Shown in pieces: positions 4,047-28,806 of a stretch of DNA of 28,806 bases. The stretch's first letter is position 1. The number at the start of each line of letters is the position of its first letter. The notes under the pieces were generated by a model. The model was not told the origin of the DNA. It was given only the letters and a program-made list of their open reading frames with translations, and did not search any database. Where the stretch lies: IMG/VR virus record IMGVR_UViG_3300022562_000514, positions 1-28,806 of that record; one strand, given 5' to 3'. The position numbers and the translations under genes were made by a program. Origin of the DNA: a virus.

Positions 4047-4109
4047 GCGCGCGCCAATAACACACCGAAACCCGGCCCGTCGTGAGACGCGCCTGTCCCT
4101 TTGAAGGAG
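4035..4109 (+). promoter_or_regulatory. Two-hairpin leader element, copy 1 (before major capsid gene)
   Basis: Hairpin 1 is GCGCTT-CGGT-AAGCGC (4035-4050, perfect 6-bp stem). Hairpin 2 (4074-4093) has stem GGC.CGTC / GACG.GCC with one C-C mismatch and a GTGA (GNRA-type) loop. The ribosome-site block TCCCTTTGAAGGAG (4096-4109) follows. The same order of parts recurs at 7520-7576 and 14981-15041 and nowhere else that I could see. It probably acts in the mRNA (stability or translation) and not as a terminator, since no T-run follows either hairpin. Confidence 0.7.
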
Positions 4110-7511: not shown

Positions 7512-7519
7512 CCCGCAAC

Positions 7520-7576
7520 GCGCCTTGGGCAAGCGCCAGAGCCCCGTCGTGAGACGCGGCAATCCCTTTGATGGAG
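7520..7576 (+). promoter_or_regulatory. Two-hairpin leader element, copy 2 (before major tail protein)
   Basis: Hairpin 1 is GCGCCTTGGGCAAGCGC (7520-7536), a GCG/CGC plus CTTG/CAAG stem with a bulged C. Hairpin 2 (7541-7560) has stem GCC.CGTC / GACG.GGC with the same C-C mismatch and GTGA loop as copy 1. TCCCTTTGATGGAG follows (7563-7576). Relative to copy 1, one outer pair is swapped from G-C to C-G with pairing kept, which argues that the folded RNA is what is conserved. Confidence 0.7.
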
Positions 7577-7583
7577 GCCCTCA

Positions 7584-7985
7584 ATGGCTAGTTCCGCTCG
7601 GAGCTTCACGATTGATTGGGCGTCGGTTGAAATCGCCGATGTTCAGTCGAAATCGTTCGAAGTCACAAACTCCCTTGTTGACGTAACGACCGACGATGAT
7701 GATGGGATCGCGACCTATCTCAGCACCATCGGCAAGCAGGAAATGACGGTTTCGATCTCCGGCGTTGCCGCGAGTGAGACGGTTCTGGCGGATGCCTATG
7801 TGATCGCGGATTCCTCGCAGACTGCGATTATCCACCTGCCGTCTACCCTGACGACCCCGGGCAACATTACCGGTACGTTCATCGTTGAGAGTTTCTCCTA
7901 CGATGCGCCGGCGTCCGATGGCACGGTCACGTTCTCGCTGAGCCTACGCCGCAGCGGCTCGGCCACCTACACGGCTAGCGTGTAA
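7584..7985 (+). CDS. Major tail (tube) protein
   Basis: 133 residues, acidic and beta-rich, with the layout of phage tube subunits: an N-terminal strand (ARSFTIDWASVEIADVQ), a long loop (VDVTTDDDDGIATYLSTIGKQ), then TVSISGVA and, at the end, NITGTFIVESFSYDAPASDGTVTFSLSLRRSG. The last block is the typical 'G-x-F-x-V-x-S-x-x-x-x-G-x-x-x-x-E/T-F-S' tail-tube ending. GGAGG at 7573-7577 supports the start. It sits between the tail terminator and the chaperone genes, as expected. Confidence 0.9.
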   Translation: MASSARSFTIDWASVEIADVQSKSFEVTNSLVDVTTDDDDGIATYLSTIGKQEMTVSISGVAASETVLADAYVIADSSQTAIIHLPSTLTTPGNITGTFIVESFSYDAPASDGTVTFSLSLRRSGSATYTASV

Positions 7986-8362
7986 TGGCGACATTCGTCT
8001 ACCGGGGCGAGTCCTACGCCGTGGAAGCGACGTGGGGCCTTTCCAAGAAACTGACAGCAGCCGGGTACGACCCGATGCGCCTTTCCGGACAACTCATCCT
8101 GTCCGTTGGGCGCGGCGTGATGGGCAACACGACGTTCCCGGCAATCGACCTTGCGGAGATCGGCAGCATTTGTCTCGCCGAGGCTGGAGTCAAAGCCACG
8201 CCGGATGAGGTCGGCGAGGCCGCGATGGCGGGTGACGGTTTTTTTCGCCTGGGTGATGCGGTGGTCGCGCTCATCACCGAGATCGTGGCGCCCGACCACG
8301 GCATGGACGATCTGCCGGAGTCGGACGGAAAAAAGGCGGAGCCCAAAGCTGGCGAGATGTGA
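7985..8362 (+). CDS. Tail assembly chaperone, first frame (lambda gpG-like role)
   Basis: 125 residues, resembling the small chaperones found after tube genes in gene transfer agents and Rhodobacterales phages. The body is MATFVYRGESYAVEATWGLSKKL, then helices (FPAIDLAEIGSICLAEAG, GDAVVALITEIVAPDHG). The acidic/basic tail is DLPESDGKKAEPKAGEM. The start overlaps the tube stop (TAATG). Near its 3' end the sequence reads GGA AAA AAG in frame, i.e. the slippery heptamer A AAA AAG. A fraction of ribosomes is expected to shift to -1 and make a longer 190-residue product with the next frame. Confidence 0.88.
   Translation: MATFVYRGESYAVEATWGLSKKLTAAGYDPMRLSGQLILSVGRGVMGNTTFPAIDLAEIGSICLAEAGVKATPDEVGEAAMAGDGFFRLGDAVVALITEIVAPDHGMDDLPESDGKKAEPKAGEM
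8329..8335 (+). promoter_or_regulatory. -1 programmed frameshift site A AAA AAG in the tail chaperone gene
   Basis: In the zero frame the codons are GGA AAA AAG, the exact phase for simultaneous -1 slippage. After the shift the frame reads GGC GGA GCC CAA AGC TGG CGA GAT GTG ATG with no stop, and runs into the frame of the downstream chaperone gene. Helpers are visible: GGAG 8 bases upstream (8317-8320), like the stimulatory Shine-Dalgarno of dnaX, and a possible stem CCAAAGC (8343-8349) with GCTTTTGG (8371-8378). Confidence 0.85.
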
Positions 8363-10379: not shown

Positions 10380-11618
10380 ATGACCGTTTCGCTAGAATCC
10401 GGCAACAGCCTGACCAACCTCAAGTATGCGCGCGTCCTCCACGCAGGCAACAGGTTTCGGCTCAAGGCCATCACGGCGAGCAGCACGGCGACGGGCTCGG
10501 ACGCGACCGCGCCGGACGACCCGGAGACGTTCGAATACTGGACGGCGTTTGACAATTCGGTGCCGGTGCCGCTGGATTTCAGCGACAGCGCGTGGACTGC
10601 AACGAACGTCACGGTGGCCTCGGACGGGCAGACGGTGACGGATGACGCGACGAACGCGGTCCACAGCCTCTCGGACACCGCGACGACAACGGCGGTTGAA
10701 TGGGTGTTCGGCGTAGAGGTGGAGCGCCAGACGCTGGCGGAGTTCCAGCTCTACCTGAACGACGGGACAACGACCTTCACCTGCTTCTTCGACATGCGGG
10801 ACGGCACGGTCGGCACGGCGTCGAACTGCACGGGGCAGATACAGGACCTCGGCGACAACCGCTTCTATTGCTCGATCTACATGACGGTAGCGGCGGCGTC
10901 CTCCACGTTCGAGTTCCGCGGCTCGGACGGTGCAGAGGCGACGACCTACATTGGCGCGAGCGACACGATCAAGCTTCTGCGGATGGACCTGAACCCGAGC
11001 GCGGCAACATGGGACGCGGACCTTTTCACGGCTACCAGCGGCAACTGCATCTGCCTCGCGGGGCACAACCTCGGGACGCGCAACGGGCGCATCCGCATCT
11101 ATTACGGGTCATCGCCGACGCTGATCGACACGCTGTCGCCCACGGATGACAGCCCCATCATGTTCCTCTTCGACGCGCAGTCGTCGGCGGACTGGCGGGT
11201 GGCGATTGACCGCGCGGCAGGCCCGAAAGTCGCGGTCATCCGCATCGGCTCGGTGCTGACGATGGAGCGGCCATTTTACGGCGGGTTCAGCCCGGCGCAC
11301 TGGAACCGCACGGACCAGCTGACCGGCAACAAGTCGGAGGGCGGGCAGTTCCTCGGGCGCGACATCATCAACCGCGGCTTCGCGGCGCGCTACGATTGGC
11401 AGAACCTCACGGATGCGTGGATACGCACGAACCTGGACGGGATGAACGGGCTGATCCGGGCGGTTCGCAAGGAGCCGTTCTTCATCGCATGGCGCGCGCT
11501 GGAGCAGAACGACTGCGACTATGCGTGGACCGCCGGGCCAGTGGCAGGGCCGGTGTTCTCCGGAACGCGCGACCTCGCGTCGTTCTCGATAGAGGCAGAG
11601 GGGCACGGGTATGAGTGA
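10380..11618 (+). CDS. Tail protein, probably distal-tail-like with a carbohydrate-binding insertion
   Basis: 412 residues. The ends look like a tail-tip structural protein: an N-terminal SLESGNSLTNLKYARVLHAGN segment and a C-terminal half with RIGSVLTMERPFYGGFSPAHWNR, EGGQFLGRDIINRG and PFFIAWRALEQ. The middle (residues ~50-210) has the pattern of a concanavalin-like or CBM fold: VEWVFGVEVERQTLAEFQLYL, TFTCFFDMRDGTVGT and NRFYCSIYMTVAAAS. By position (right after tape measure) it corresponds to the distal tail / baseplate ring protein. The start is ATG at 10380 with a weak AGG upstream. I am confident it is a virion protein, less so of the exact role. Confidence 0.78.
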   Translation: MTVSLESGNSLTNLKYARVLHAGNRFRLKAITASSTATGSDATAPDDPETFEYWTAFDNSVPVPLDFSDSAWTATNVTVASDGQTVTDDATNAVHSLSDTATTTAVEWVFGVEVERQTLAEFQLYLNDGTTTFTCFFDMRDGTVGTASNCTGQIQDLGDNRFYCSIYMTVAAASSTFEFRGSDGAEATTYIGASDTIKLLRMDLNPSAATWDADLFTATSGNCICLAGHNLGTRNGRIRIYYGSSPTLIDTLSPTDDSPIMFLFDAQSSADWRVAIDRAAGPKVAVIRIGSVLTMERPFYGGFSPAHWNRTDQLTGNKSEGGQFLGRDIINRGFAARYDWQNLTDAWIRTNLDGMNGLIRAVRKEPFFIAWRALEQNDCDYAWTAGPVAGPVFSGTRDLASFSIEAEGHGYE

Positions 11619-11622
11619 ACTA
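11611..11622. repeat. 12-bp direct repeat, left flank of the antisense insert
   Basis: ATGAGTGAACTA at 11611-11622 recurs as ATGAGTGAATTA at 11834-11845 (11 of 12 bases). The left copy contains the stop of the upstream tail gene (TGA at 11616-11618), and on the other strand the stop (TAG) of the antisense gene. Confidence 0.75.
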
Positions 11623-11835
11623 CCTCACGTCAAACAACATCGTGATGGTCATTCGCCTTCTTGGCGCCGCGCCGAGACGTTCATCGATGCTGAATGTCGT
11701 GCGCTCACAAGCGACATACGGACACGAGACTAATTCCCTGGCGGCCGAGCAAGCTTCGTTGTGCGTCTCGGCTTGCATCAGAGCCTCAAATAGTTCGCGA
11801 GCGAAGAAATCGGGGGGGGTGGCGATGTTGTCCAT
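11620..11835 (-). CDS. Antisense 71-aa protein with its own promoter, leaderless mRNA (moron)
   Basis: Begins MDNIATPPDFFARELFEALM and ends RRRMTITMLFDVR. The sequence reads like a real small protein: an acidic helix (ARELFEALMQAETHNEACSAARELV), three cysteines (C29, C38, C43) and a basic beta-like end. No signal peptide or known domain is recognised. A minus-strand promoter TTGGAC-N17-TATAAT lies directly upstream, and the A of the ATG is 7 bases after the -10, so the transcript would start at the start codon. There is no ribosome site, which fits leaderless translation. The gene is exactly framed by direct repeats. The overlapping + strand frame of 79 residues is less protein-like. Confidence 0.72.
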   Translation of the reverse strand: MDNIATPPDFFARELFEALMQAETHNEACSAARELVSCPYVACERTTFSIDERLGAAPRRRMTITMLFDVR

Positions 11836-11845
11836 GAGTGAATTA
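11834..11845. repeat. 12-bp direct repeat, right flank of the antisense insert
   Basis: ATGAGTGAATTA, the partner of 11611-11622. On the minus strand it contains the first base of the antisense gene's start codon and most of its -10 box. On the plus strand it precedes the ATG (11847) of the tail hub gene. Removing one repeat unit plus the insert would leave the upstream stop and downstream start almost touching, as at other gene joints here. Confidence 0.75.
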
Positions 11846-11870
11846 TATGCCTGAACGCCTGCCCGTCCAA
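11842..11870 (-). promoter_or_regulatory. Sigma70-type promoter TTGGAC-N17-TATAAT
   Basis: On the minus strand the -35 TTGGAC is at 11870-11865, the spacer is 17 bases, and the -10 TATAAT (perfect) is at 11847-11842. It points at the antisense 71-aa gene, with the predicted start of RNA at or next to the ATG. It is the best promoter match I found in the window and lies inside the 5' end of the tail hub gene, so it could be active in the lysogen when the late operon is silent. Confidence 0.7.
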
Positions 11871-14114
11871 GTGCTCAAAATCGCGCTGCCCAAATGCGCG
11901 AACACGCACGGCACGGCGCCCTGCACGGCCACGCAGACCGACGATGGCAAGTGCTACAACTGCCGCGCGACCTGCAACGACGTGGCGAACTATCGGCAGA
12001 CGCCGGACGGACACCTGACGGCGGACCTCACGAAATACGCAGGAGACGCCATCACGTCAACGGAGCTGACGCGCACCGCCGACCTGTTCGCGGCCTTCGA
12101 CGTGTCCTTCCCGGTGACGCCATCCGGCACCATCTGGGAGCAGGGCGGGTCCGCGGACCAGGCGGCTTATCTCGGCATCACGTCGACGAACCTTGTCTTC
12201 CGCGCCGGGGATGGGACGGCGAGCGACAGCACGACCACTGCCAAAATCAGCGTTGCCTACTCGGCGGTCGCTGGCAAGACTCTTACGCTCTACGTGGAAA
12301 TCGACATCAGCGCGGATACGGTGAACCTTTGGGCCTTCGACCCGGTGGCCCTGACCCTGACCCTGCTCGGCACGGACACCGCGGCCTCGAGCATCACCAC
12401 GTGGGCAGGCACGGACGGCGGGGCGGTCGGCGCTGACGGCGGCTCCAACATCGCGACCGGCGAGGACGGCGGCACGTTCAACGGCACGATAACCGCGGCG
12501 CGGTTCTACGACAGCACGGCGGCGCCGGACATGTCGGACAACTACCGGCTGGACCTCTACTTCGGCCGCAACCAGCAAGGAAAGCCCGCAGACGACATCG
12601 TGGTCTTTCCTTACATCACCAGCATTCAGACGGCGGGCAGCCGCATCAACCTGGCGGGCGGCGACAAGAACTACGAACCCCTAGGCGCGCGGGCGCAGAT
12701 GTCCGTGACGCTGGCGGACGGGCCGTCCTCCGACCGGGTGGTGGACCCCTACCTGTCCGACCGGCTCTACGACCCGCGCGACTTCGGCACCTTCTGGACC
12801 AAGTTCCGGGTGCGCCACAAGTACGGGCAGGTCGGCGCGCTGGTGACGCTCTACGAGGGCTACGACGGCGACCGGCTGGCGGACATGCAGAGCCGGTCCT
12901 ACATCCTCGACCGCATCGACTTCGGCGGTACGGACAGCGTGGGCATCAACTGCCGGGACGTTCTCACCCGCTCGGAACTTAACAAGGCACAGGCCCCGGT
13001 CGCGAGCCCCGGGAAGCTCAAGGATGACATCACCGCGGCAGCAACCGCCTTCACCGTGACCGGGGCCCTCGCTACCGACTACGACGCTAGCGGGACGGTG
13101 CGGATCGGCGACGAGGTTCTGACGTACTCGTCATTCACCGAGAGCGCGAACGGTGACCTGGTCTTTGCAGTAACTTCCCGGGGCTCCGATAACACCACCG
13201 CGGACACGCATTCCGCGAACGACGCGGTGCAACTCTGCCTGCGATACACGGCGCAGGCTCCGAGCGACATCCTGGCGGACCTGCTCGCGAACTACGCCGG
13301 GGTCGAATACCAGTTCCTGAATTTGTCCGATTGGGCGTCGGAAGCCACGAGCTACCTGTCTACCTATGCCCTGACGCGACTCATCACGAAGCCGACCGAG
13401 GTCAAGACCCTGATCGGGGAAATCGCCGAGCAATGCGCGCTTTACGTCTACTGGAACGAACGCACGCAAGCGGTGGACATGAAGGCCATACGCGGGCAGG
13501 TGTCCCAACCGGCCACGCTGGACGATGACAGTCACCTCATCATGGAAAGCGTAACGCTTCGCGAGAGACCGGAGCAGCGTGCCGACCAGGTTTGGTTCTA
13601 CTACAACCAACTGGACCCGACGAAAGACACCGACGAGGTGACGAACTACCAGAACGCCGAGGTCTTCGTCGGGCCGTCGTTCTTCGGCCAAAGCCAAATC
13701 CGGCGCGTCCTGTCCCCGTGGATTCCCTCCGACTCGATGGCACTGGAAACAGCGTCGAAGGTTGCCAACCGCTACCGGGAAGTCCCGCTCGAGTTGTCCT
13801 TCGATCTCGACGCCAAAGACCGCAGCCTTTGGCTCGGCGACACTCGCTACATTACGCACCGCAAATTGGTGGACCGGAACGGGCGGCCGGACACGACGCG
13901 GCTGTTCACGATCATCGAGGCCGAGGACCGGGTGCTGGAAGGCCGCGTCCGCTACGTGGCGGTCGATGCCACGATTGCCGGGTTTATCTACGTGTACATG
14001 GACTCCGGCGACTCGGATTACGTGGGCGACGGGACGGACCAGTTCAACGGCGCTTGGTATACGAACGACGGCGGCGTTTACAATAACGGCGATATGGGGG
14101 CGGTCTACTCATGA
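11847..14114 (+). CDS. Tail tip / baseplate hub protein with N-terminal cysteine cluster
   Basis: 755 residues from the ATG at 11847 (a GTG three codons earlier is possible). The N-terminus has cysteines at 17, 26, 36, 39 and 43 in a C-x8-C-x9-C-x2-C-x3-C pattern with HGTAPC and ATCND. I recall this block from other siphovirus tail-tip proteins, where it may hold a metal or Fe-S cluster. Residues ~55-230 look like a LamG/concanavalin-type domain (WEQGG, LTLYVEIDISADTVNLWAF, GTITAARFYDS). The second half resembles hub domains: YEPLGARAQMSVTL, YDPRDFGTFWTKFRVR, ILDRIDFGG, RSELNKAQAP, then a baseplate-hub ending. It overlaps the next gene by ATGA. Confidence 0.82.
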   Translation: MPERLPVQVLKIALPKCANTHGTAPCTATQTDDGKCYNCRATCNDVANYRQTPDGHLTADLTKYAGDAITSTELTRTADLFAAFDVSFPVTPSGTIWEQGGSADQAAYLGITSTNLVFRAGDGTASDSTTTAKISVAYSAVAGKTLTLYVEIDISADTVNLWAFDPVALTLTLLGTDTAASSITTWAGTDGGAVGADGGSNIATGEDGGTFNGTITAARFYDSTAAPDMSDNYRLDLYFGRNQQGKPADDIVVFPYITSIQTAGSRINLAGGDKNYEPLGARAQMSVTLADGPSSDRVVDPYLSDRLYDPRDFGTFWTKFRVRHKYGQVGALVTLYEGYDGDRLADMQSRSYILDRIDFGGTDSVGINCRDVLTRSELNKAQAPVASPGKLKDDITAAATAFTVTGALATDYDASGTVRIGDEVLTYSSFTESANGDLVFAVTSRGSDNTTADTHSANDAVQLCLRYTAQAPSDILADLLANYAGVEYQFLNLSDWASEATSYLSTYALTRLITKPTEVKTLIGEIAEQCALYVYWNERTQAVDMKAIRGQVSQPATLDDDSHLIMESVTLRERPEQRADQVWFYYNQLDPTKDTDEVTNYQNAEVFVGPSFFGQSQIRRVLSPWIPSDSMALETASKVANRYREVPLELSFDLDAKDRSLWLGDTRYITHRKLVDRNGRPDTTRLFTIIEAEDRVLEGRVRYVAVDATIAGFIYVYMDSGDSDYVGDGTDQFNGAWYTNDGGVYNNGDMGAVYS

Positions 14115-14952: not shown

Positions 14953-14980
14953 CCGGATCATCTGATCCCCCGCCCATTCC

Positions 14981-15041
14981 GCGCCTTGGGCAAGCGCTGA
15001 GCCCGGCCCGTCGTGAGACGCAGCCATTCCCTTTGAAGGAG
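14981..15041 (+). promoter_or_regulatory. Two-hairpin leader element, copy 3 (before Gp80-like protein)
   Basis: Hairpin 1 GCGCCTTGGGCAAGCGC (14981-14997) is identical to copy 2. Hairpin 2 (15005-15025) has CGTC-GTGA-GACG with an outer GGC/GCC stem reached after a small internal loop. TCCCTTTGAAGGAG (15028-15041) is identical to copy 1. Copies 2 and 3 also share the sequence between the hairpins closely. Confidence 0.7.
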
Positions 15042-15048
15042 GCCCCCT

Positions 15049-15489
15049 ATGACCGCCACGAACCAGTTCGAGGACGACCTCCTCGACCATATCGTAACCA
15101 ACACCACCGCCCCGAACGTCGGGGATGCGACCGGACTTGTCGCATCGACCACTGCCGGGAGTGCACAGATTTCTCTGCACACCGCGGCGCTGAGCGACAC
15201 CGACACGCTCACCACGGCCAGCGAGGCTGCTTATACGTCCTACGCCCGGCAAACCGTGGCGCGCTCGACGACGGGCTGGACTGTCGCCTCCGGTACGGTG
15301 GACAACGATTCCGCGATCACCTTCCCGGCGGCAACCGGCGGTTCAGAGACGGAGACCTACTTCGGCGTTACGCTCCTATCTTCCGGCAACTTCCTGCAAA
15401 TCTGGGGCGCGCTCACCAGCGGCCTCGCGGTGTCCTCGGGCATCACGCCGGAATTCGCGGCGGGCGCGCTCGACATTTCCCTCGACTGA
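15049..15489 (+). CDS. Tail fibre-type protein, Gp80-like family
   Basis: 146 residues. The layout matches the small structural proteins called Gp80-like or phage tail fibre: NQFEDDLLDHIVTNT, then ISLHTAALSDTDT, AAYTSYARQTVA, AITFPAATGGSETETYFGVTL, GNFLQIWGALTSGLAVSSG and FAAGALDISLD. The last two blocks ('G-N-x-L-x-x-x-G-x-L' and 'F-x-A-G-x-L-x-I-x-L-D') are the most typical. GAAGGAGG at 15035-15042 supports the start. Sharing its leader element with the capsid and tail tube genes suggests it may also be made in many copies. Confidence 0.8.
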   Translation: MTATNQFEDDLLDHIVTNTTAPNVGDATGLVASTTAGSAQISLHTAALSDTDTLTTASEAAYTSYARQTVARSTTGWTVASGTVDNDSAITFPAATGGSETETYFGVTLLSSGNFLQIWGALTSGLAVSSGITPEFAAGALDISLD

Positions 15490-15513
15490 TCCAAGCACGA
15501 AAGGAGCCCCGTG

Positions 15514-15783
15514 ATGGGCAAGAAGATTCTGGAAGCCGCCATTGCGACTCGCACGGCCGAACTCGCCGAGGCTGGCGTCGATACCGGCAACGATGCGGTC
15601 AAGAAGCTGGTTCACCGCGAGGTGCGGATGAAGCAGCGGATCGAGCGGATCGACTTCAAGCTTTCCCGCGAGACCACCGGGAAGGACGAGGCCGCCGTGC
15701 TGCGCGAGGAGCGCGAGGAACGCGCGCTAGAAATGGAGCTTGCCACCCGCAAGCTAGCCCGCCACGCCAATGCCGCAGCCTGA
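15514..15783 (+). CDS. Coiled-coil hypothetical protein, 89 aa
   Basis: Begins MGKKILEAAIATRTAELAEAG; AAGGAG at 15501-15506 favours the ATG at 15514 over the adjoining GTG at 15511. Nearly all helix, highly charged, with heptad-like spacing (VRMKQRIERIDFKLSRE, LREEREERALEMELATRKL). Its end overlaps the next gene by 14 bases. The function is unknown; an assembly chaperone or a structural linker of the fibre complex would fit. Confidence 0.72.
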   Translation: MGKKILEAAIATRTAELAEAGVDTGNDAVKKLVHREVRMKQRIERIDFKLSRETTGKDEAAVLREEREERALEMELATRKLARHANAAA

Positions 15784-16273: not shown

Positions 16274-17059
16274 ATGCTAATCTGGGACAAGACACTCTAT
16301 GACGCGCTATATAGCGTCAGGGCATGGGAGCATGGGGTGCGAGACTTTCCTCGCATCCCGCGGCATCATTACAGCTGGTTCGTCCAGCAGCCCCGCATCC
16401 TTCGAACCAAGAATGTCATCACGAACCTTTTGGCACAGCCAGGCTTCTCGCAGGTCAGTGACCTGTGCATCGTCGGCGGCGGCATGGGCTGGACGACCGA
16501 ATTGCTGGTTGCGGCGGGGATCAACGTCATCAACGTGGACACCTCGCCTTACGTGTCTGGCAATTGGCAGACCAGCGAGGAGACTGAAATCCGCGCCTGG
16601 CTGACCGCCGATGGCTTCGATCCAGATAACCTTCCGGCCTTCGCTGACCCGGTGGACCCGAATGCAGATGTTGTAGATATCTGGGCGCACTGGCTTCACC
16701 CGTCTGGCGGGCGCGTCGGGCTCGACGGCACGCGGATGGTCTTCGAAGATATCAGCACCAGCGCGGGGCGGCGAGCGGTAAGGCGCGACTATGCCCTGCC
16801 AAACAACATTGACGCGATCATGACGGAACTGGCGCTCGATGGCTTCGATCAGGCCGATGGTGACGGGCCGGTCATCAACTTCGTCGCCAATGTGGACGCG
16901 CTTCGCCCGAACCCCGCGTGCCAGGTTGTCCACATCATCGAGCATAATCCGTTCGATGTCCTGATGATTAACAAGACGTTGGCCGACTGGAAGGCTTGGC
17001 TGACGCTTAACGGCTTCAGTGGGCACTTCGTCGCCGATACCAGTGGGAACTGGCTCTAA
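16274..17059 (+). CDS. Rossmann-fold, methyltransferase-like protein in the tail-fibre cluster
   Basis: 261 residues. Residues 63-73 read DLCIVGGGMGW, a glycine-rich loop after a beta strand as in motif I of class I SAM-dependent methyltransferases. VINVDTSPYV (85-94) supplies the acidic residue expected at the end of strand 2 (D89). The remainder (AHWLHPSGGR, IDAIMTELAL, FVANVDALRPN, DWKAWLTLNGFSGHF) is compatible with the rest of such a domain, but I see no clear substrate motif. AAGGA at 16259-16263 supports the start. The stop overlaps the big fibre gene (TAATG). It could modify the virion or a host surface component, or be a catalytically dead structural relative. Confidence 0.68.
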   Translation: MLIWDKTLYDALYSVRAWEHGVRDFPRIPRHHYSWFVQQPRILRTKNVITNLLAQPGFSQVSDLCIVGGGMGWTTELLVAAGINVINVDTSPYVSGNWQTSEETEIRAWLTADGFDPDNLPAFADPVDPNADVVDIWAHWLHPSGGRVGLDGTRMVFEDISTSAGRRAVRRDYALPNNIDAIMTELALDGFDQADGDGPVINFVANVDALRPNPACQVVHIIEHNPFDVLMINKTLADWKAWLTLNGFSGHFVADTSGNWL

Positions 17060-19401
17060 TGGCCCTTCCGACCACCATAACAGGAATTTCATGGCCTTCA
17101 TTCACGAGAAACATTGGGCCATTCCTTTCGAGCGGCGGAAATGTCTATTTTGTTCAAAAAAGCAGCACTAACAACGCCGCACTCCGCGCGTTTAAAGCAA
17201 CCGATCCGACATCATCTTTTTCAGAGGCGGATAGTTCAAATGCTCCAACATCCGGAGCAGGAAATCCCATTGAAGCACTTGCCTGCAAACAAGTTGGCGA
17301 CCTAATCCACGTTGTCTTTCAGGTTTCAGGCACGAACAATGGACGTGTCCTCTATTCACAATTCAATATGTCGTCCGATACGTGGCTTACTTCTGGCTAT
17401 GGAATCTCGTCCGGCTCGCAGGTCACACTCTACACGCCTACCAACGCCCCCTCTGTTTATGGCTGCGACATCGAGGTTCGCAGTGATGGCGATGTTATCG
17501 CCACCTACCACGGTGAACTCCCGACTACGATGGGCGGCACCTATCAGGAGATTGCCTACAGCCGTTGGGAAGGCTCGTCGTGGACGAACGGTGTCGTGGT
17601 GGCATCGTCAGTGGCAAAGGATGACAACAGGTATTATCCGGCAATAGTAAATGGCTCTAGCGATCAATCGCATATCATTTATTGGTCTGATACTGGTCAA
17701 GATACCCTGCTTAAAGCGCTTTCGAGTGCCAATGCTCTAAGAACCGAAAGAACTGTTTTCAATACCGCGATCACAGGGACGCAATACAATCATAAACCAG
17801 TAATGGCTACCCAAGGCGGAACGGAACGGGTAGTCATCAATTGGAGTTCAAACGACACGAATGCTCGCACGCATGTTATTTATTATACTCATTTTACAGA
17901 TGATAGTTCTCCGACCTTTAATAACTCTCAGCCGGATACCACGAACGCTGTTGCACAATCGCATCAGCAAAACGCTCTGGCTGTAGATGACCTGACTAAT
18001 GATAAGGTTTATGTCGCCGCCATTCATTCGTCAGACAGTGATATTTACCTATACAGCAACGATGCTCTTAGCGGATCGTGGACTGCGGAGAATTCTGGCT
18101 CCGCAATCCGCACAGGCACTGCCAGTGTGATCAGCACGAATATCTACACGCGCAGCGGAAGCAAGGTCGTTGCGTTCGTCTACAACGATGGCTCCACGGT
18201 CAAATATGATGAGTGGTCGCTTTCGAGTGGAAATAATCCAATCACGGGCTCCGTCACGCTAACGATTTCGGGCTCTGCCGCTATTGCCGGTACGGGCGCT
18301 TTGGCCGGTACGTCTACACTGACCGTTGCAGCGGCCGGCGCAATTGTCGGCATCGGCCCAATTACCGGAACAGTGACCGCGACGTTCGGCAATGTTGCAA
18401 CGCTGAGGGCGATTGCACCAGCGAGCGCCGCAGAATCTTTGAGCATCAGCACTGCCGCCGCACTCACTGGAACGGGCGCACTGGCCGGTATTGGGGGGAT
18501 GACGATCTCCGGTTCGGCCACGCTTGCCGGAACGGGTGCCCTGGCCGGGGCCACGGCTATGACCCTGGCCGGTTCGGCATCGCTTGTCGGCATCGGTCCC
18601 ATCGCAGGTGTCACCAGCCTTCAGGTCGGTGCTGCGGGCGTTCTCAGCGGCCAAGGGCTTCTCGCCGGAACATCTTCCATCGCCCTTTCGGCAGCGGGGG
18701 CGCTCACGGGCACTGGTGCCTTGGCAGGAGTCGCGGCGCTCACTCTGTCGCAAGCCGGTCTGCTTGATGGCACCGGCGCGTTGGCGGGGGCCACGTCGCT
18801 GCTTTTCGGCAACCTGGCGACACTGTCCGAGGTAGGCTCGGGTGCGATGGCTGGCACGGCGGCGCTAACGGTGACACCCGCAGGCGCGGTGACGGGGCTC
18901 GGCGCGCTACAGGGTGCAAGTGCGCTGACACTCTCCGGGTCGGCCACGCTCGCAGGCACGGGTGCGCTTGCCGGTGCGGCCGTGCTCGTTCTATCGGCGA
19001 GCGGCACGGCAACATCCGGCGGGCCGAGCCCGATCTCCGGCTCTGTCGCGCTCGCGCTCTCGGCCAGTGCGGACCTCGCTGCCATCGGCGAGCTTGCGGG
19101 AAATTCGACGCTGGTGTTCACGCCCTCTGGCGCGCTGGCGGGATCTGGCGCGCTTGCCGGGGCCGCCGCCGTCGCCATTGTTCCGGCTGCAAGCCTGGGT
19201 GCGCTGGCGTCGATCTCCGGCGCGGCGAGCCTCACCATTCTGGGCACGGCGGAGATCACCCGCATCGGCCTTATCTCCGTCGTGAAGGTCTTCACGGGCG
19301 ACCCGCAGACGATCGGCCCGTCGACGGGCGACCCCTACAGCCCGGGCCTTCCGATAGGCGACCCGGAGAACATCGACCCGGGTACAGGCGACCCCTACTG
19401 A
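17059..19401 (+). CDS. Tail fibre: beta-propeller-like head and long 20-residue repeat domain
   Basis: 780 residues. Residues 1 to ~390 are aromatic- and Ser/Asn-rich with repeated strand patterns (IAYSRWEGSSW, SHIIYWSDTG, KVYVAAIHSSDSDIYLYSND) as in BNR/sialidase-like propellers. Residues ~394-740 are about sixteen tandem repeats of 20-22 residues around 'LTLSGSATLAGTGALAG', with no charged residues for long stretches. The last ~40 residues repeat a GDP motif four times. The first ~1.2 kb is visibly richer in A/T than its neighbours, suggesting that the receptor-binding part was exchanged. A host-recognition fibre is the natural reading; the enzymatic activity, if any, is unknown. Confidence 0.8.
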   Translation: MALPTTITGISWPSFTRNIGPFLSSGGNVYFVQKSSTNNAALRAFKATDPTSSFSEADSSNAPTSGAGNPIEALACKQVGDLIHVVFQVSGTNNGRVLYSQFNMSSDTWLTSGYGISSGSQVTLYTPTNAPSVYGCDIEVRSDGDVIATYHGELPTTMGGTYQEIAYSRWEGSSWTNGVVVASSVAKDDNRYYPAIVNGSSDQSHIIYWSDTGQDTLLKALSSANALRTERTVFNTAITGTQYNHKPVMATQGGTERVVINWSSNDTNARTHVIYYTHFTDDSSPTFNNSQPDTTNAVAQSHQQNALAVDDLTNDKVYVAAIHSSDSDIYLYSNDALSGSWTAENSGSAIRTGTASVISTNIYTRSGSKVVAFVYNDGSTVKYDEWSLSSGNNPITGSVTLTISGSAAIAGTGALAGTSTLTVAAAGAIVGIGPITGTVTATFGNVATLRAIAPASAAESLSISTAAALTGTGALAGIGGMTISGSATLAGTGALAGATAMTLAGSASLVGIGPIAGVTSLQVGAAGVLSGQGLLAGTSSIALSAAGALTGTGALAGVAALTLSQAGLLDGTGALAGATSLLFGNLATLSEVGSGAMAGTAALTVTPAGAVTGLGALQGASALTLSGSATLAGTGALAGAAVLVLSASGTATSGGPSPISGSVALALSASADLAAIGELAGNSTLVFTPSGALAGSGALAGAAAVAIVPAASLGALASISGAASLTILGTAEITRIGLISVVKVFTGDPQTIGPSTGDPYSPGLPIGDPENIDPGTGDPY
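18241..19279 (+). repeat. About sixteen coding repeats of 60-66 bases in the fibre gene
   Basis: Protein-level repeats with a conserved GTGALAG (or GIGPIAG / GSGALAG) turn every ~20 residues; bases have diverged, so these are old repeats kept at protein level. Each unit alternates a Leu/Ile-rich strand with a small-residue turn, as expected for a beta-solenoid or stacked fibre shaft. Confidence 0.75.
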
Positions 19402-22085: not shown

Positions 22086-22346
22086 GCAACCCCACAGCTT
22101 TGCAATCATCGGATGCAAGGGTGAGTGCGGGCTGATTATCGGGCGCGGCGCGCTTTCCGGTCCCGAAGCTGGCTTTGCAACGTTGCCCGCCGTCACCTTG
22201 CGGCTGCGGGGCGTAGCCAGTCCTTTCTACATAGCTCGGCGGCGTGGAAGATGTGCCTTCACAGTCACGAACCAGCCGCACTCACTTCCCGAAATCTACG
22301 CCCGAACACGCGCAAGTTCAAGCGCAGGCTGAAAGGAGCCTCAATC
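22086..22346. other. Intergenic region with long stem-loop
   Basis: No gene is supported. Two weak frames on each strand cover it, none with a ribosome site. It contains an ~17-bp imperfect inverted repeat: 22115-22132 (GCAAGGGTGAGTGCGGGC) against 22185-22201 (GCCCGCCGTCACCTTGC). The short word GCTTTGCAA occurs twice (near 22097 and 22172). The strong ribosome site of the protease gene (AAAGGAG, 22332-22338) is at its end. This is the largest non-coding gap in the late region and may mark the junction between lysis genes and an acquired block. Confidence 0.55.
22115..22201 (+). repeat. Imperfect 17-bp inverted repeat (stem-loop)
   Basis: Left arm 22115-22132 and right arm 22185-22201 match with one bulge and two mismatches, with a 52-base loop. 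As RNA it would be a stable cruciform-like hairpin. It is not followed by T's, so a simple intrinsic terminator is not supported. It could also be a dispersed genomic repeat. Confidence 0.55.
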
Positions 22347-23243
22347 ATGGACCGACTCAAGACCCTCTTCGCCAAGTGGGCGGCACTGCCGACGCCAGTT
22401 CGGATCGGCGCCATCGCCTTCGTCATTCTCCTCGGCGCCAAGATGGCCTTCGGGCAGGCGGTGGAGGCGCTGAACCGCACCATTGACCAGACGAACTTCA
22501 TCGTCGGCGCGGGCATGGGCCACTGCTCGGGCGAACTCATCTCGCTGGAGTACCGGCTGATCCTGACGAACAACCACTGCGTCGTCGATAACGTTCGGTG
22601 GGTGGATAAGAAGGAAGTCGTTGACGGCGAGGTGATGACGCGGAAGGTCGAGGTCCGCTATGACATGACGGTTCAGCAGAAGTTCTACGAGGCGGGCAAG
22701 GAGGTCGGACGCTCGACCTACCAGGCGGAGATCGTCTCCTACAACAAGGAACACGACCTCGCGCTGCTGCAGGTCAAGACCGCGAAGCTTCCGAACGAAG
22801 AATACATGCACATCTTCGCCGGCAAGCAGGGCGACCTCCAGCGGGGCTCCAAGGTCTACACCATCGGCAACCCTCTGATGCTCGATGCCAGCGTGATGAC
22901 TGGCGTTGTCGCTTCGGTGAACCGGGTATTCCCGCTGCGCGACGGTGGCGAGTTGGCGTTGATCCAGACGGACGCGGGCATCGCGCCCGGCTCCTCCGGC
23001 GGCGCGCTCGTCAACGAAGACCTGCAGATGATCGGCGTAACCGCCCTCATCGCGCGGGGAACGCAGATCGGCCTCGCGATTGCTTATTGGGACATCCAGA
23101 AGTTCCTGACAGGGGCGTGCTACGAGGATGTCTGGAACCCGGAAGGCCAGTCGCACGCCGACTGCGAGGCCGCGAAGACACCCGCAGACGACGGCAAGAC
23201 CGTCAAGGACCTGCTGCGCGAGCTTGTGGACAAACAGCAGTGA
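22347..23243 (+). CDS. Exported trypsin-like serine protease
   Basis: 298 residues. A hydrophobic segment at residues ~19-36 after a short basic N-terminus looks like a signal peptide or anchor, putting the enzyme in the periplasm. The catalytic triad is complete: H77 in LTNNHCVV, D137 in EHDLALLQV and S217 in APGSSGGALV. C60 and C78 stand where chymotrypsin has its histidine-loop disulfide; a second pair (C258, C273) is near the C-terminus. There is no PDZ domain, unlike DegP/HtrA. AAAGGAG upstream fixes the start at 22347. A longer in-frame extension to 22125 has no ribosome site and reads into the intergenic hairpin. The role in the phage cycle is unknown. Confidence 0.85.
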   Translation: MDRLKTLFAKWAALPTPVRIGAIAFVILLGAKMAFGQAVEALNRTIDQTNFIVGAGMGHCSGELISLEYRLILTNNHCVVDNVRWVDKKEVVDGEVMTRKVEVRYDMTVQQKFYEAGKEVGRSTYQAEIVSYNKEHDLALLQVKTAKLPNEEYMHIFAGKQGDLQRGSKVYTIGNPLMLDASVMTGVVASVNRVFPLRDGGELALIQTDAGIAPGSSGGALVNEDLQMIGVTALIARGTQIGLAIAYWDIQKFLTGACYEDVWNPEGQSHADCEAAKTPADDGKTVKDLLRELVDKQQ

Positions 23244-26195: not shown

Positions 26196-26271
26196 ATCGT
26201 AATGGCATCGTAATGGAAACGCATATAGAACATGCGGCCAGTACGACCCCCGATTACGACCGGATTACGAT
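26196..26271. repeat. Four RTCGTAAT sites in inverted pairs upstream of the integrase
   Basis: Plus-strand copies ATCGTAAT at 26196-26203 and 26207-26214; minus-strand copies at 26253-26260 (GTCGTAAT) and 26264-26271 (ATCGTAAT). Within each pair the spacing is 11 bases, one helical turn, and the pairs face each other. Their midpoint lies close to the predicted integrase transcription start. This looks like cooperative binding of a dimer or tetramer, e.g. a repressor, Xis or the integrase arm-binding domain. Confidence 0.65.
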
Positions 26272-26273
26272 TC

Positions 26274-27197
26274 GTGGCTTCATTCAGAAAGACCAGGGCC
26301 GGGTGGCAGGCACAGGTCGCGCGCAAGGGCGTGCGGAAGGCCAGGACGTTCGCGACGAGGACTGAAGCGAAGGATTGGGCCGCCCGCGAGGAATATCTCA
26401 TTCTACATGGACAGGGGCAATACGGCCCCGGCACACTCGGCGACCTGTTCATGCGGTACGCGCGCGAGGTCTCGCCGAAGAAGCGCGGCGCGCGCTGGGA
26501 GCAGATCAGGCTCGAGCGGTTCTGCCGCGACCGGCTGGCAAAGGTCCCGGCGAAGGACGCGCGCCCCGCCGACTTCGCGGACTGGCGCGACCGGCGGCTG
26601 CGGGAGGTCGCTGCCGGTTCGGTCAGGCGGGAAATGGGCATCATGTCCGCAGTCATGTCGATCGCCCGCAAGGAGTGGGGTGTCTTCACCGTCTCGCCGA
26701 TGCGGGACGTTGCCAAACCTGCGAGCCCGAGGGCGCGGGACAGGCTGGTCACGGACGAAGAGATTGACCGGCTGGTGGCTGCGGCACGAACACCGATGGC
26801 GCGGCTGGCCGTGCAGGCGTTCCGGTTCGCCTGCGCCACGGGCATGCGGGCCGGCGAGGTCCTGAGCGCAGAGGTAGAGGGCCGGGTGGCGCACCTGTCA
26901 GAGACGAAGAACGGGACCGCGCGGGACGTGCCGCTCTCGGCCGCGGCGCTGGCACTCTGGCCCGAGGGCGGGTTTGACCTGACCTCCCGGCAGCTTGACA
27001 CCACCTTCCGGCGGGTGCGCGACAAGGCAGGGCTGGAGGGGCTGACCTTCCATGACAGCCGACACCGCGCAATCACTGACCTGTCCCGCAAGCTCGATGT
27101 GCTGGCGCTGGCGCGGGTGGTGGGGCATCGGGACATCAAACAGCTCATGGCCTATTACAATGAATCGGTGGCGGATCTAGCCGCCCGCCTCGACTAG
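26274..27197 (+). CDS. int: Tyrosine integrase
   Basis: 307 residues from the GTG at 26274, giving MASFRKTRAGWQAQVARKG, the typical opening of the arm-DNA-binding domain; an upstream in-frame ATG at 26232 would add 14 atypical residues and cover the repeat array. Middle: a core-binding SAM-like domain (~55-150). The catalytic set is complete: R192 (GMRAGEVL), K212 (ETKNG), H260-x-x-R263 (HDSRH), H285 (VVGHRD) and Y294 (MAYYN). The enzyme inserts and excises the phage at an att site, which I could not locate. It ends in a 21-base convergent overlap with the excisionase-like gene. Confidence 0.92.
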   Translation: MASFRKTRAGWQAQVARKGVRKARTFATRTEAKDWAAREEYLILHGQGQYGPGTLGDLFMRYAREVSPKKRGARWEQIRLERFCRDRLAKVPAKDARPADFADWRDRRLREVAAGSVRREMGIMSAVMSIARKEWGVFTVSPMRDVAKPASPRARDRLVTDEEIDRLVAAARTPMARLAVQAFRFACATGMRAGEVLSAEVEGRVAHLSETKNGTARDVPLSAAALALWPEGGFDLTSRQLDTTFRRVRDKAGLEGLTFHDSRHRAITDLSRKLDVLALARVVGHRDIKQLMAYYNESVADLAARLD

Positions 27198-27852: not shown

Positions 27853-28806
27853 TCAGGTTCTCCTTTCAGGATAGGTAAATTCTGACGCCGGGATGCCAAG
27901 CCGCCAGGCTTGCGCGCCCCTAACCGTCATTTCGTCCAGTTCACGATTGTTGACCGCCTCCATTATTCGGCCGTTTCTCGGGCATATGGCCCGAAGATAG
28001 TACCCGGGCTCGCTGAGACCGGGCAATTGAACGCGGATGAGGTCGCCGCGCTCCGGGTCTGGATCACTGTCAACAATCTCGTGCTGCAGCTTATCCAGCA
28101 TTCGCTCCATGCCGATGATCGCCACGCCAGCGGCGCGCTCCTCGGCGTTCTCTGTTTTCAGTATTTCAACGGGATCAACGTGCGTTCGGTCTTCTATCCA
28201 GTGTCCCGGCACGCGGACGCCATGCCAGTGGTAAAGTGACCAGCCGTCGCGCCAGCGGTGGGATGGCCCCGTCTCGCAGTGCGGTAGATTTTCTGCGTCA
28301 ACATGGATAAATTCCGGAAAGTCTGAGATGATGCAAAACTCCGGATGGAGAACGCGAAAACCACCGTGGATCGCGGCCTGTTCCCAGTGTGCGTATGCGT
28401 TATGTTCTGGCAGGCGTAAGCCCAGTATATCGCGCGCCGCTGTCAGGTAGCACTCGCCGCCCGCCCACATATTTCCTCCTTGATAAGCCATATGCCACAA
28501 CCTTGCGGCAGCAATAGCGCCCGCCCCGCCTAGCTCTCCGGCAGCGCACGCAGCCGAGTACGTGGCCGAGTGCGTGGCCGAGTACGTGGCCAAGCGCGTG
28601 GCCGAGTACGTGGCCGATTGCGTGGCCCAGTGCGTGGCCGAGTCCGTGGCCGAGCGCGTGGCCGAGTCCGCGGCCGAGTACGTGGCCGATTGCGTGGCCG
28701 AGTGCGTGGCCGAGTGCGTGGCCGAGTCCGTGGCCGAGTCCGTGGCCGAGTGCGTGGCCGAGTACGTGGCCGATTGCGTGGCCCAGTGCGTGGCCGAGTC
28801 CGTGGC
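27853..28806 (-). CDS. DUF6745-like protein with N-terminal S-A-T-x repeats (runs off right edge)
   Basis: 317 residues are in the window; the start lies to the right. From the right edge about 21 tetrapeptides of the form S-A-T-x (x = D, H, Q, Y or R) follow one another, then AGELGGAGAIAAARLWHMAY and a conserved body: HGGFRVLHPEFCIISDFPEFIH, DAENLPHCETGPSHRWRDGW, LYHWHGVRVPGHWI, a helical centre, and a C-terminal RVQLPGLSEPGYYLRAICP. The 'DGP/TGPSHR-RDGW-LY-WHG-RVP' block is what I remember of the DUF6745 family, whose members often carry similar N-terminal repeats. An internal ATG at 28470 with GGAGG could also start a short form without repeats. Function unknown. Confidence 0.75.
   Translation of the reverse strand, partial: ATDSATHWATQSATYSATHSATDSATDSATHSATHSATQSATYSAADSATRSATDSATHWATQSATYSATRLATYSATHSATYSAACAAGELGGAGAIAAARLWHMAYQGGNMWAGGECYLTAARDILGLRLPEHNAYAHWEQAAIHGGFRVLHPEFCIISDFPEFIHVDAENLPHCETGPSHRWRDGWSLYHWHGVRVPGHWIEDRTHVDPVEILKTENAEERAAGVAIIGMERMLDKLQHEIVDSDPDPERGDLIRVQLPGLSEPGYYLRAICPRNGRIMEAVNNRELDEMTVRGAQAWRLGIPASEFTYPERRT
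28549..28806 (-). repeat. 12-bp coding tandem repeat (about 21 units) at right edge
   Basis: Units of the form x x x-TSG-GCC-ACG on the minus strand, each coding x-S-A-T (x-W-A-T in two). The block at 28601-28650 recurs exactly at 28757-28806, 156 bases (13 units) away, which shows that units were copied in groups. The array continues past the window. There are no spacers, so it is not CRISPR. Confidence 0.9.

Follow-up and report, generated by a model that had tools for sequence, protein, structure and literature searches.

Gene 1 and gene 2, two adjacent genes of a phage tail operon, overlap in 87 of 96 relatives, whereas in the virus contig analysed here (IMG/VR record IMGVR_UViG_3300022562_000514, 28,806 nucleotides in all, hereafter the window) they lie 219-228 nt apart, which indicates that the extra DNA between them is derived. 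We consider the chances slightly better than even that this DNA, at a joint where insertions recur, represents a small accessory insert that is co-directional and translationally coupled, or the decayed remnant of one. The features on which the analysis bears are the following:

10380..11618, plus strand: gene 1, the upstream tail gene (phrog_11633; also scores just above the cut-off for the NCBIfam phage head spike fiber domain)
11611..11622: left repeat copy ATGAGTGAACTA, comprising the gene 1 stop and the ancestral 8-nt ATGAGTGA overlap
11611..11733, plus strand: 40-codon ORF, starting at the ATG of the ancestral overlap, with GAGGGG upstream
11615..11854, plus strand: 79-codon ORF, a candidate coupled co-directional ORF, with a GTG start and a TGA stop
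11620..11835, minus strand: 71-codon ORF, a candidate gene, taken as a moron in an earlier note on this sequence; without homologues
11623..11833: inserted DNA lying between the two copies of the repeat, with 56% GC where the flanking genes have 64-65%; missing from the joints of 87/96 relatives
11834..11845: right repeat copy ATGAGTGAATTA, what remains of the ancestral start of gene 2 (MSE...), one base out of the gene 2 frame
11842..11870, minus strand: sigma-70-like site TTGGAC-N17-TATAAT, mostly within the coding DNA of gene 2
11847..14114, plus strand: gene 2, the downstream tail fibre gene (phrog_11439)

The gene 1/gene 2 joint in the window and in relatives

The present start of gene 2 is probably ATG 11847, with GTG 11838 as a possible alternative, and gene 1 ends (...GHGYE*) in the overlap motif of the family, tATGAGTGA. 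The 12-bp direct repeats which the earlier note had placed at 11611-11622 and 11834-11845 are present and match at 11 of 12 positions, with a spacing of 223. Further into gene 2, at about 12010-12530, lies an extra N-terminal stretch of about 160 aa which is not found in the aligned cultured phage homologues; the closest IMG/VR homologues align across it.

Relatives of gene 2 were gathered from annotated phages, IMG/VR (80 loci) and GTDB genomes (13 loci), and in each of the 96 relatives counted we determined where gene 1 ends and where gene 2 starts. The two genes overlapped in 87 of these, by 8 nt (n=41), 4 nt (n=27), 1 nt (n=14) or some other length (n=5), the 8-nt overlap (ATGNNTGA) being the commonest; alignment of these joints bears out the earlier proposal that the two genes would all but touch without the insert. 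With overlaps of 8, 4 or 1 nt in nearly all relatives, gene 1 and gene 2 resemble translationally coupled overlapping pairs (PMC6728339, PMC10666635), although in the window, unlike in such pairs, they are split by the insert. Every joint in the nearest relatives of the window (L007-L018) was an 8-nt overlap, often ATGAGTGA, within which gene 2 begins (MSE...) and gene 1 stops (...YE*); in the window, ATGAGTGA is confined to the two repeat copies.

The non-overlapping relatives comprised one with a 19-nt gap and eight with gaps of more than 60 nt, among which L065 (3.4 kb) is not a clear insert. Clear inserts at the joint were present in seven distant relatives (L028, L032, L042, L061, L088, L095 and L099), and in all seven they contained plus-strand ORFs, of 25-154 aa; these small genes were called from ORFs alone. 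Several of them (61 aa in L032, 67 aa in L088, 100 aa in L042, 149 aa in L061 and 154 aa in L099) are similar in size to the candidate frames in the window, at the same joint. The ORFs of L032 and L088 overlap gene 2 by 8 nt at their 3' ends, as does the 79-codon plus frame of the window (+7), and those of L042, L061 and L095 overlap it by 4 nt. The L032 and L088 proteins are 38% identical, so that one small gene recurs at this joint, and neither gave a significant match in PHROGs or Pfam. At the level of ORFs, these relatives show that small co-directional ORFs have been inserted repeatedly at the gene 1/gene 2 joint of this tail-module family.

Origin of the flanking direct repeat

About 8 of the 12 repeated bases are the conserved ATGAGTGA stop/start overlap. 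This sequence serves both as the end of gene 1 and as the beginning of gene 2, and any insert sparing both genes must therefore have the overlap on either side. The left copy ends gene 1 just as in the relatives; in the right copy, ATG 11834 is separated from the conserved Arg of gene 2 by 22 nt, that is, the usual 7 codons of the relatives plus one base, which identifies the right copy as the old gene 2 start, since shifted one base out of frame. Beyond the overlap the repeat extends for four bases only (ACTA and ATTA, 3/4 alike); this match leaves room for a true 12-bp target duplication, and in that respect speaks against the coupled insert that we prefer. When real joints of this gene pair were compared in register, however, at least 11/12 positions matched in 3% of pairs and at least 10/12 in 10%, so the repeat stands only weakly above what the joint motif itself gives. 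The different insert of L088, a Rhodobacterales prophage, is flanked on both sides by an exact 9-bp repeat, CCTATGACT, which we attribute to the same doubled-overlap origin.

The repeat thus agrees with insertion, and as a sign of a transposition-like target duplication it is weak evidence. The earlier note had proposed an insertion with target duplication; the insertion is real and a short duplication does frame the DNA, but the repeat is mostly a doubled overlap. An 8-base gene overlap, combined with an insert that spares both genes, yields a short direct-repeat frame automatically, and a doubled overlap is therefore open to misreading as a transposon-style target duplication.

A small MITE-like transposable element, inserted with a 9-12 bp target duplication, would also account for the 11/12 flanking repeat, and the predicted fold of the insert pairs a short inverted repeat, ACAACATCG, near each insert end. 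We regard such an element as highly unlikely: the inverted repeat is not terminal and its offsets from the two ends differ, no terminal inverted repeats were found beside the repeat copies, no further copy of the insert was found in the window, phages or plasmids, and the flanking repeat is largely coding overlap, which would be doubled anyway. A search of the insert DNA against phages and plasmids returned nothing beyond a 26-base chance match, and no RNA families were found in it.

The coupled-insert explanation begins with an ancestral tail operon in which, as the relatives show, the stop of gene 1 and the start of gene 2 both lay within an 8-nt overlap, ATGAGTGA. A net insertion of 223 bp split the joint, for which a staggered break followed by repair, or short-homology recombination at the motif, are candidate routes. 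With both proteins kept whole, the overlap would have come to stand on both sides, giving rise to most of the 12-bp repeat.

Other repeats and genes of the window were noted in passing. A 34-nt leader, CCCGTCGTGAGACGCG...CCCTTTGAAGGAG, in which a short CGTC-GTGA-GACG hairpin is followed by a Shine-Dalgarno sequence, is repeated at 4076-4109, 7543-7576 and 15007-15040; the first two copies lie where the major capsid gene and the major tail protein gene start, and the third is close to the gene region at about 15049. Paired repeats (D2, D4, D10 and D18) linking 7519-8212 with 14980-15600, with a common spacing (about 7.4-7.5 kb), suggest that a segment of tail genes has been duplicated, and a 12-bp tandem repeat array occupies 28503-28806, up to the contig end. 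The 780-codon gene at 17059-19401 has a third-position GC of 0.61, much lower than the 0.78-0.88 of the other late genes measured, the kind of difference that recent acquisition might be expected to leave. A gene for a trypsin-like serine protease of this temperate phage, matching phrog_11383 and a protease family, lies at 22125-23243.

Reading frames of the insert and the promoter-like site

The earlier note had described a self-contained cassette, consisting of a leaderless antisense gene and its promoter. Its 71-codon minus-strand ORF does lie between the repeats, with the stop codon TAG (11620-11622) inside the left copy; the start codon is partly inside the right copy, as claimed, but shares two bases with it (11835 and 11834) and not one. 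The TTGGAC-N17-TATAAT-like site at 11870-11842 was also recovered, with the -10 TATAAT at 11847-11842, TTGGAC at 11870-11865 and 17 nt between them. TTGGAC agrees with TTGACA at only 3/6 positions, and TGGACG, at 16-nt spacing, at 4/6; with the 16-nt spacing the site scores 10/12 and is the best sigma-70-like match in scans of the window. All of the -35 and of the spacer, along with two bases of the -10, fall outside the insert, in gene 2, however, so the insert does not carry its own promoter and the cassette is not self-contained.

That this ORF is a moron of 71 aa, transcribed from its own promoter, leaderless and expressed in the prophage, we consider improbable. In addition to the presence of both the ORF and a top-ranking promoter-like site, a match to an integrase at 26232-27197 speaks for a temperate phage, and a single-sequence AlphaFold model of the protein (pLDDT 60) contains two moderately confident helices (pLDDT 72-77). 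Set against these are the location of most of the promoter-like site in gene 2 DNA, the finding of 0 terminator-like sites in 10500-13000, the failure of a structure search with the low-confidence model to return a match at E <= 0.001, and the co-directional ORFs in the inserts of relatives. The earlier note had suggested looking for the protein at other insertion points; no relative was found in any collection searched (IMG/VR, GTDB contigs, phages and plasmids), nor in 391 genomes from the order to which G001 (the genome with L088) belongs, a weak search without a positive control. A match in Streptomyces phage Dennebes (E=0.2) runs antisense to an annotated gene and was rejected as a homologue. 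The length of the ORF is also within chance, and the plus frame described below fits both joints. We read the locus as an ordinary insertion at a joint where the overlap of two tail genes is conserved; the moron is a possible but less likely reading, and the minus ORF and promoter-like site are most likely coincidental. There is, in our estimate, only a slim chance that a promoter which already lay within gene 2 was recruited by the insertion and drives, in the lysogen, leaderless production of an orphan 71-aa protein from the strand opposite the tail operon.

On the plus strand, the 79-codon ORF overlaps both neighbours; it shares 4 nt (GTGA) with the gene 1 stop and 8 nt (ATGCCTGA) with the gene 2 ATG 11847, so that its 3' end is exactly the 8-nt overlap typical of the joint. 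Termination-reinitiation coupling is nearly gone at a spacing of about 20 nt in bacteria and archaea (PMC10666635), and no Shine-Dalgarno-like sequence was found before ATG 11847. We reasoned that an insert without a co-directional frame should therefore uncouple gene 2, and this argument, along with the plus-strand ORFs of the relatives, favours a co-directional small gene or its remnant. The insert would supply the frame from GTG 11615 to TGA 11854, by which ribosomes may be coupled from gene 1 to gene 2, or a decayed version of it.

Several properties of this frame count against the coupled insert. It starts with GTG, no homologue of the 79-aa product was found in IMG/VR or phages (or in the same 391 genomes, again by a weak search without a positive control), its single-sequence model is less protein-like than that of the minus ORF (pLDDT 52 as opposed to 60), and its GC1 is lower than its GC2, unlike nearly all other phage genes measured. 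PADLOC, Pfam, PHROGs and NCBIfam gave nothing significant for either the minus or the plus ORF, and codon scores cannot separate the strands, because the plus and minus frames share third positions.

The shorter plus-strand ORF, of 40 codons, encodes HRDGH near its N-terminus, the corresponding residues being HIDGH in the protein of L032 and HVDGH in that of L088. Shuffling gave p=0.001-0.006 for its similarity to these proteins, but in two inconsistent alignment registers, and a profile search detected no significant similarity between the frames of the window and the L032/L088 protein; as a comparison of sequences, the resemblance to the L032 small protein is not convincing.

It is also conceivable, if rather unlikely, that neither strand of the insert carries a gene, the DNA being untranslated or decayed and its frames open by chance, and that gene 2 uses its own weak start. 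Frames of this length do arise readily, in that an open frame reaching 70 codons or more occurs in 34% of base-shuffled inserts, and two or more frames nearly that long in 7%. The absence of homologues for both frames in the collections searched, the weak codon signal (z about 2, compared with about 5-8 for most tail-operon windows tested) and fold energies no better than those of shuffles are all consistent with that reading. An insert devoid of genes would sit less easily with its modest excess of third-position GC, with a plus frame that ends in the 8-nt overlap typical of the joint, and with the open plus frames in comparable inserts of relatives.

Relation to phage morons and to inserts in relatives

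A phage moron is an accessory gene with its own promoter and terminator (PMC2147016, PMC7067206). The insert is like a moron in being extra DNA of differing composition between structural genes of a temperate phage, in being missing from the homologous joint of most relatives, and in holding an ORF that opposes the late genes; it is unlike one in that the promoter-like site is not within the insert and neither a terminator nor homologues were found. In position the insert parallels the small genes of L032 and L088, from which the window differs in that its frames lack significant profile similarity to their protein and its putative plus frame starts with GTG. As a recurrent site of small co-directional genes, the gene 1/gene 2 joint could repay a search for accessory tail or host-interaction proteins.
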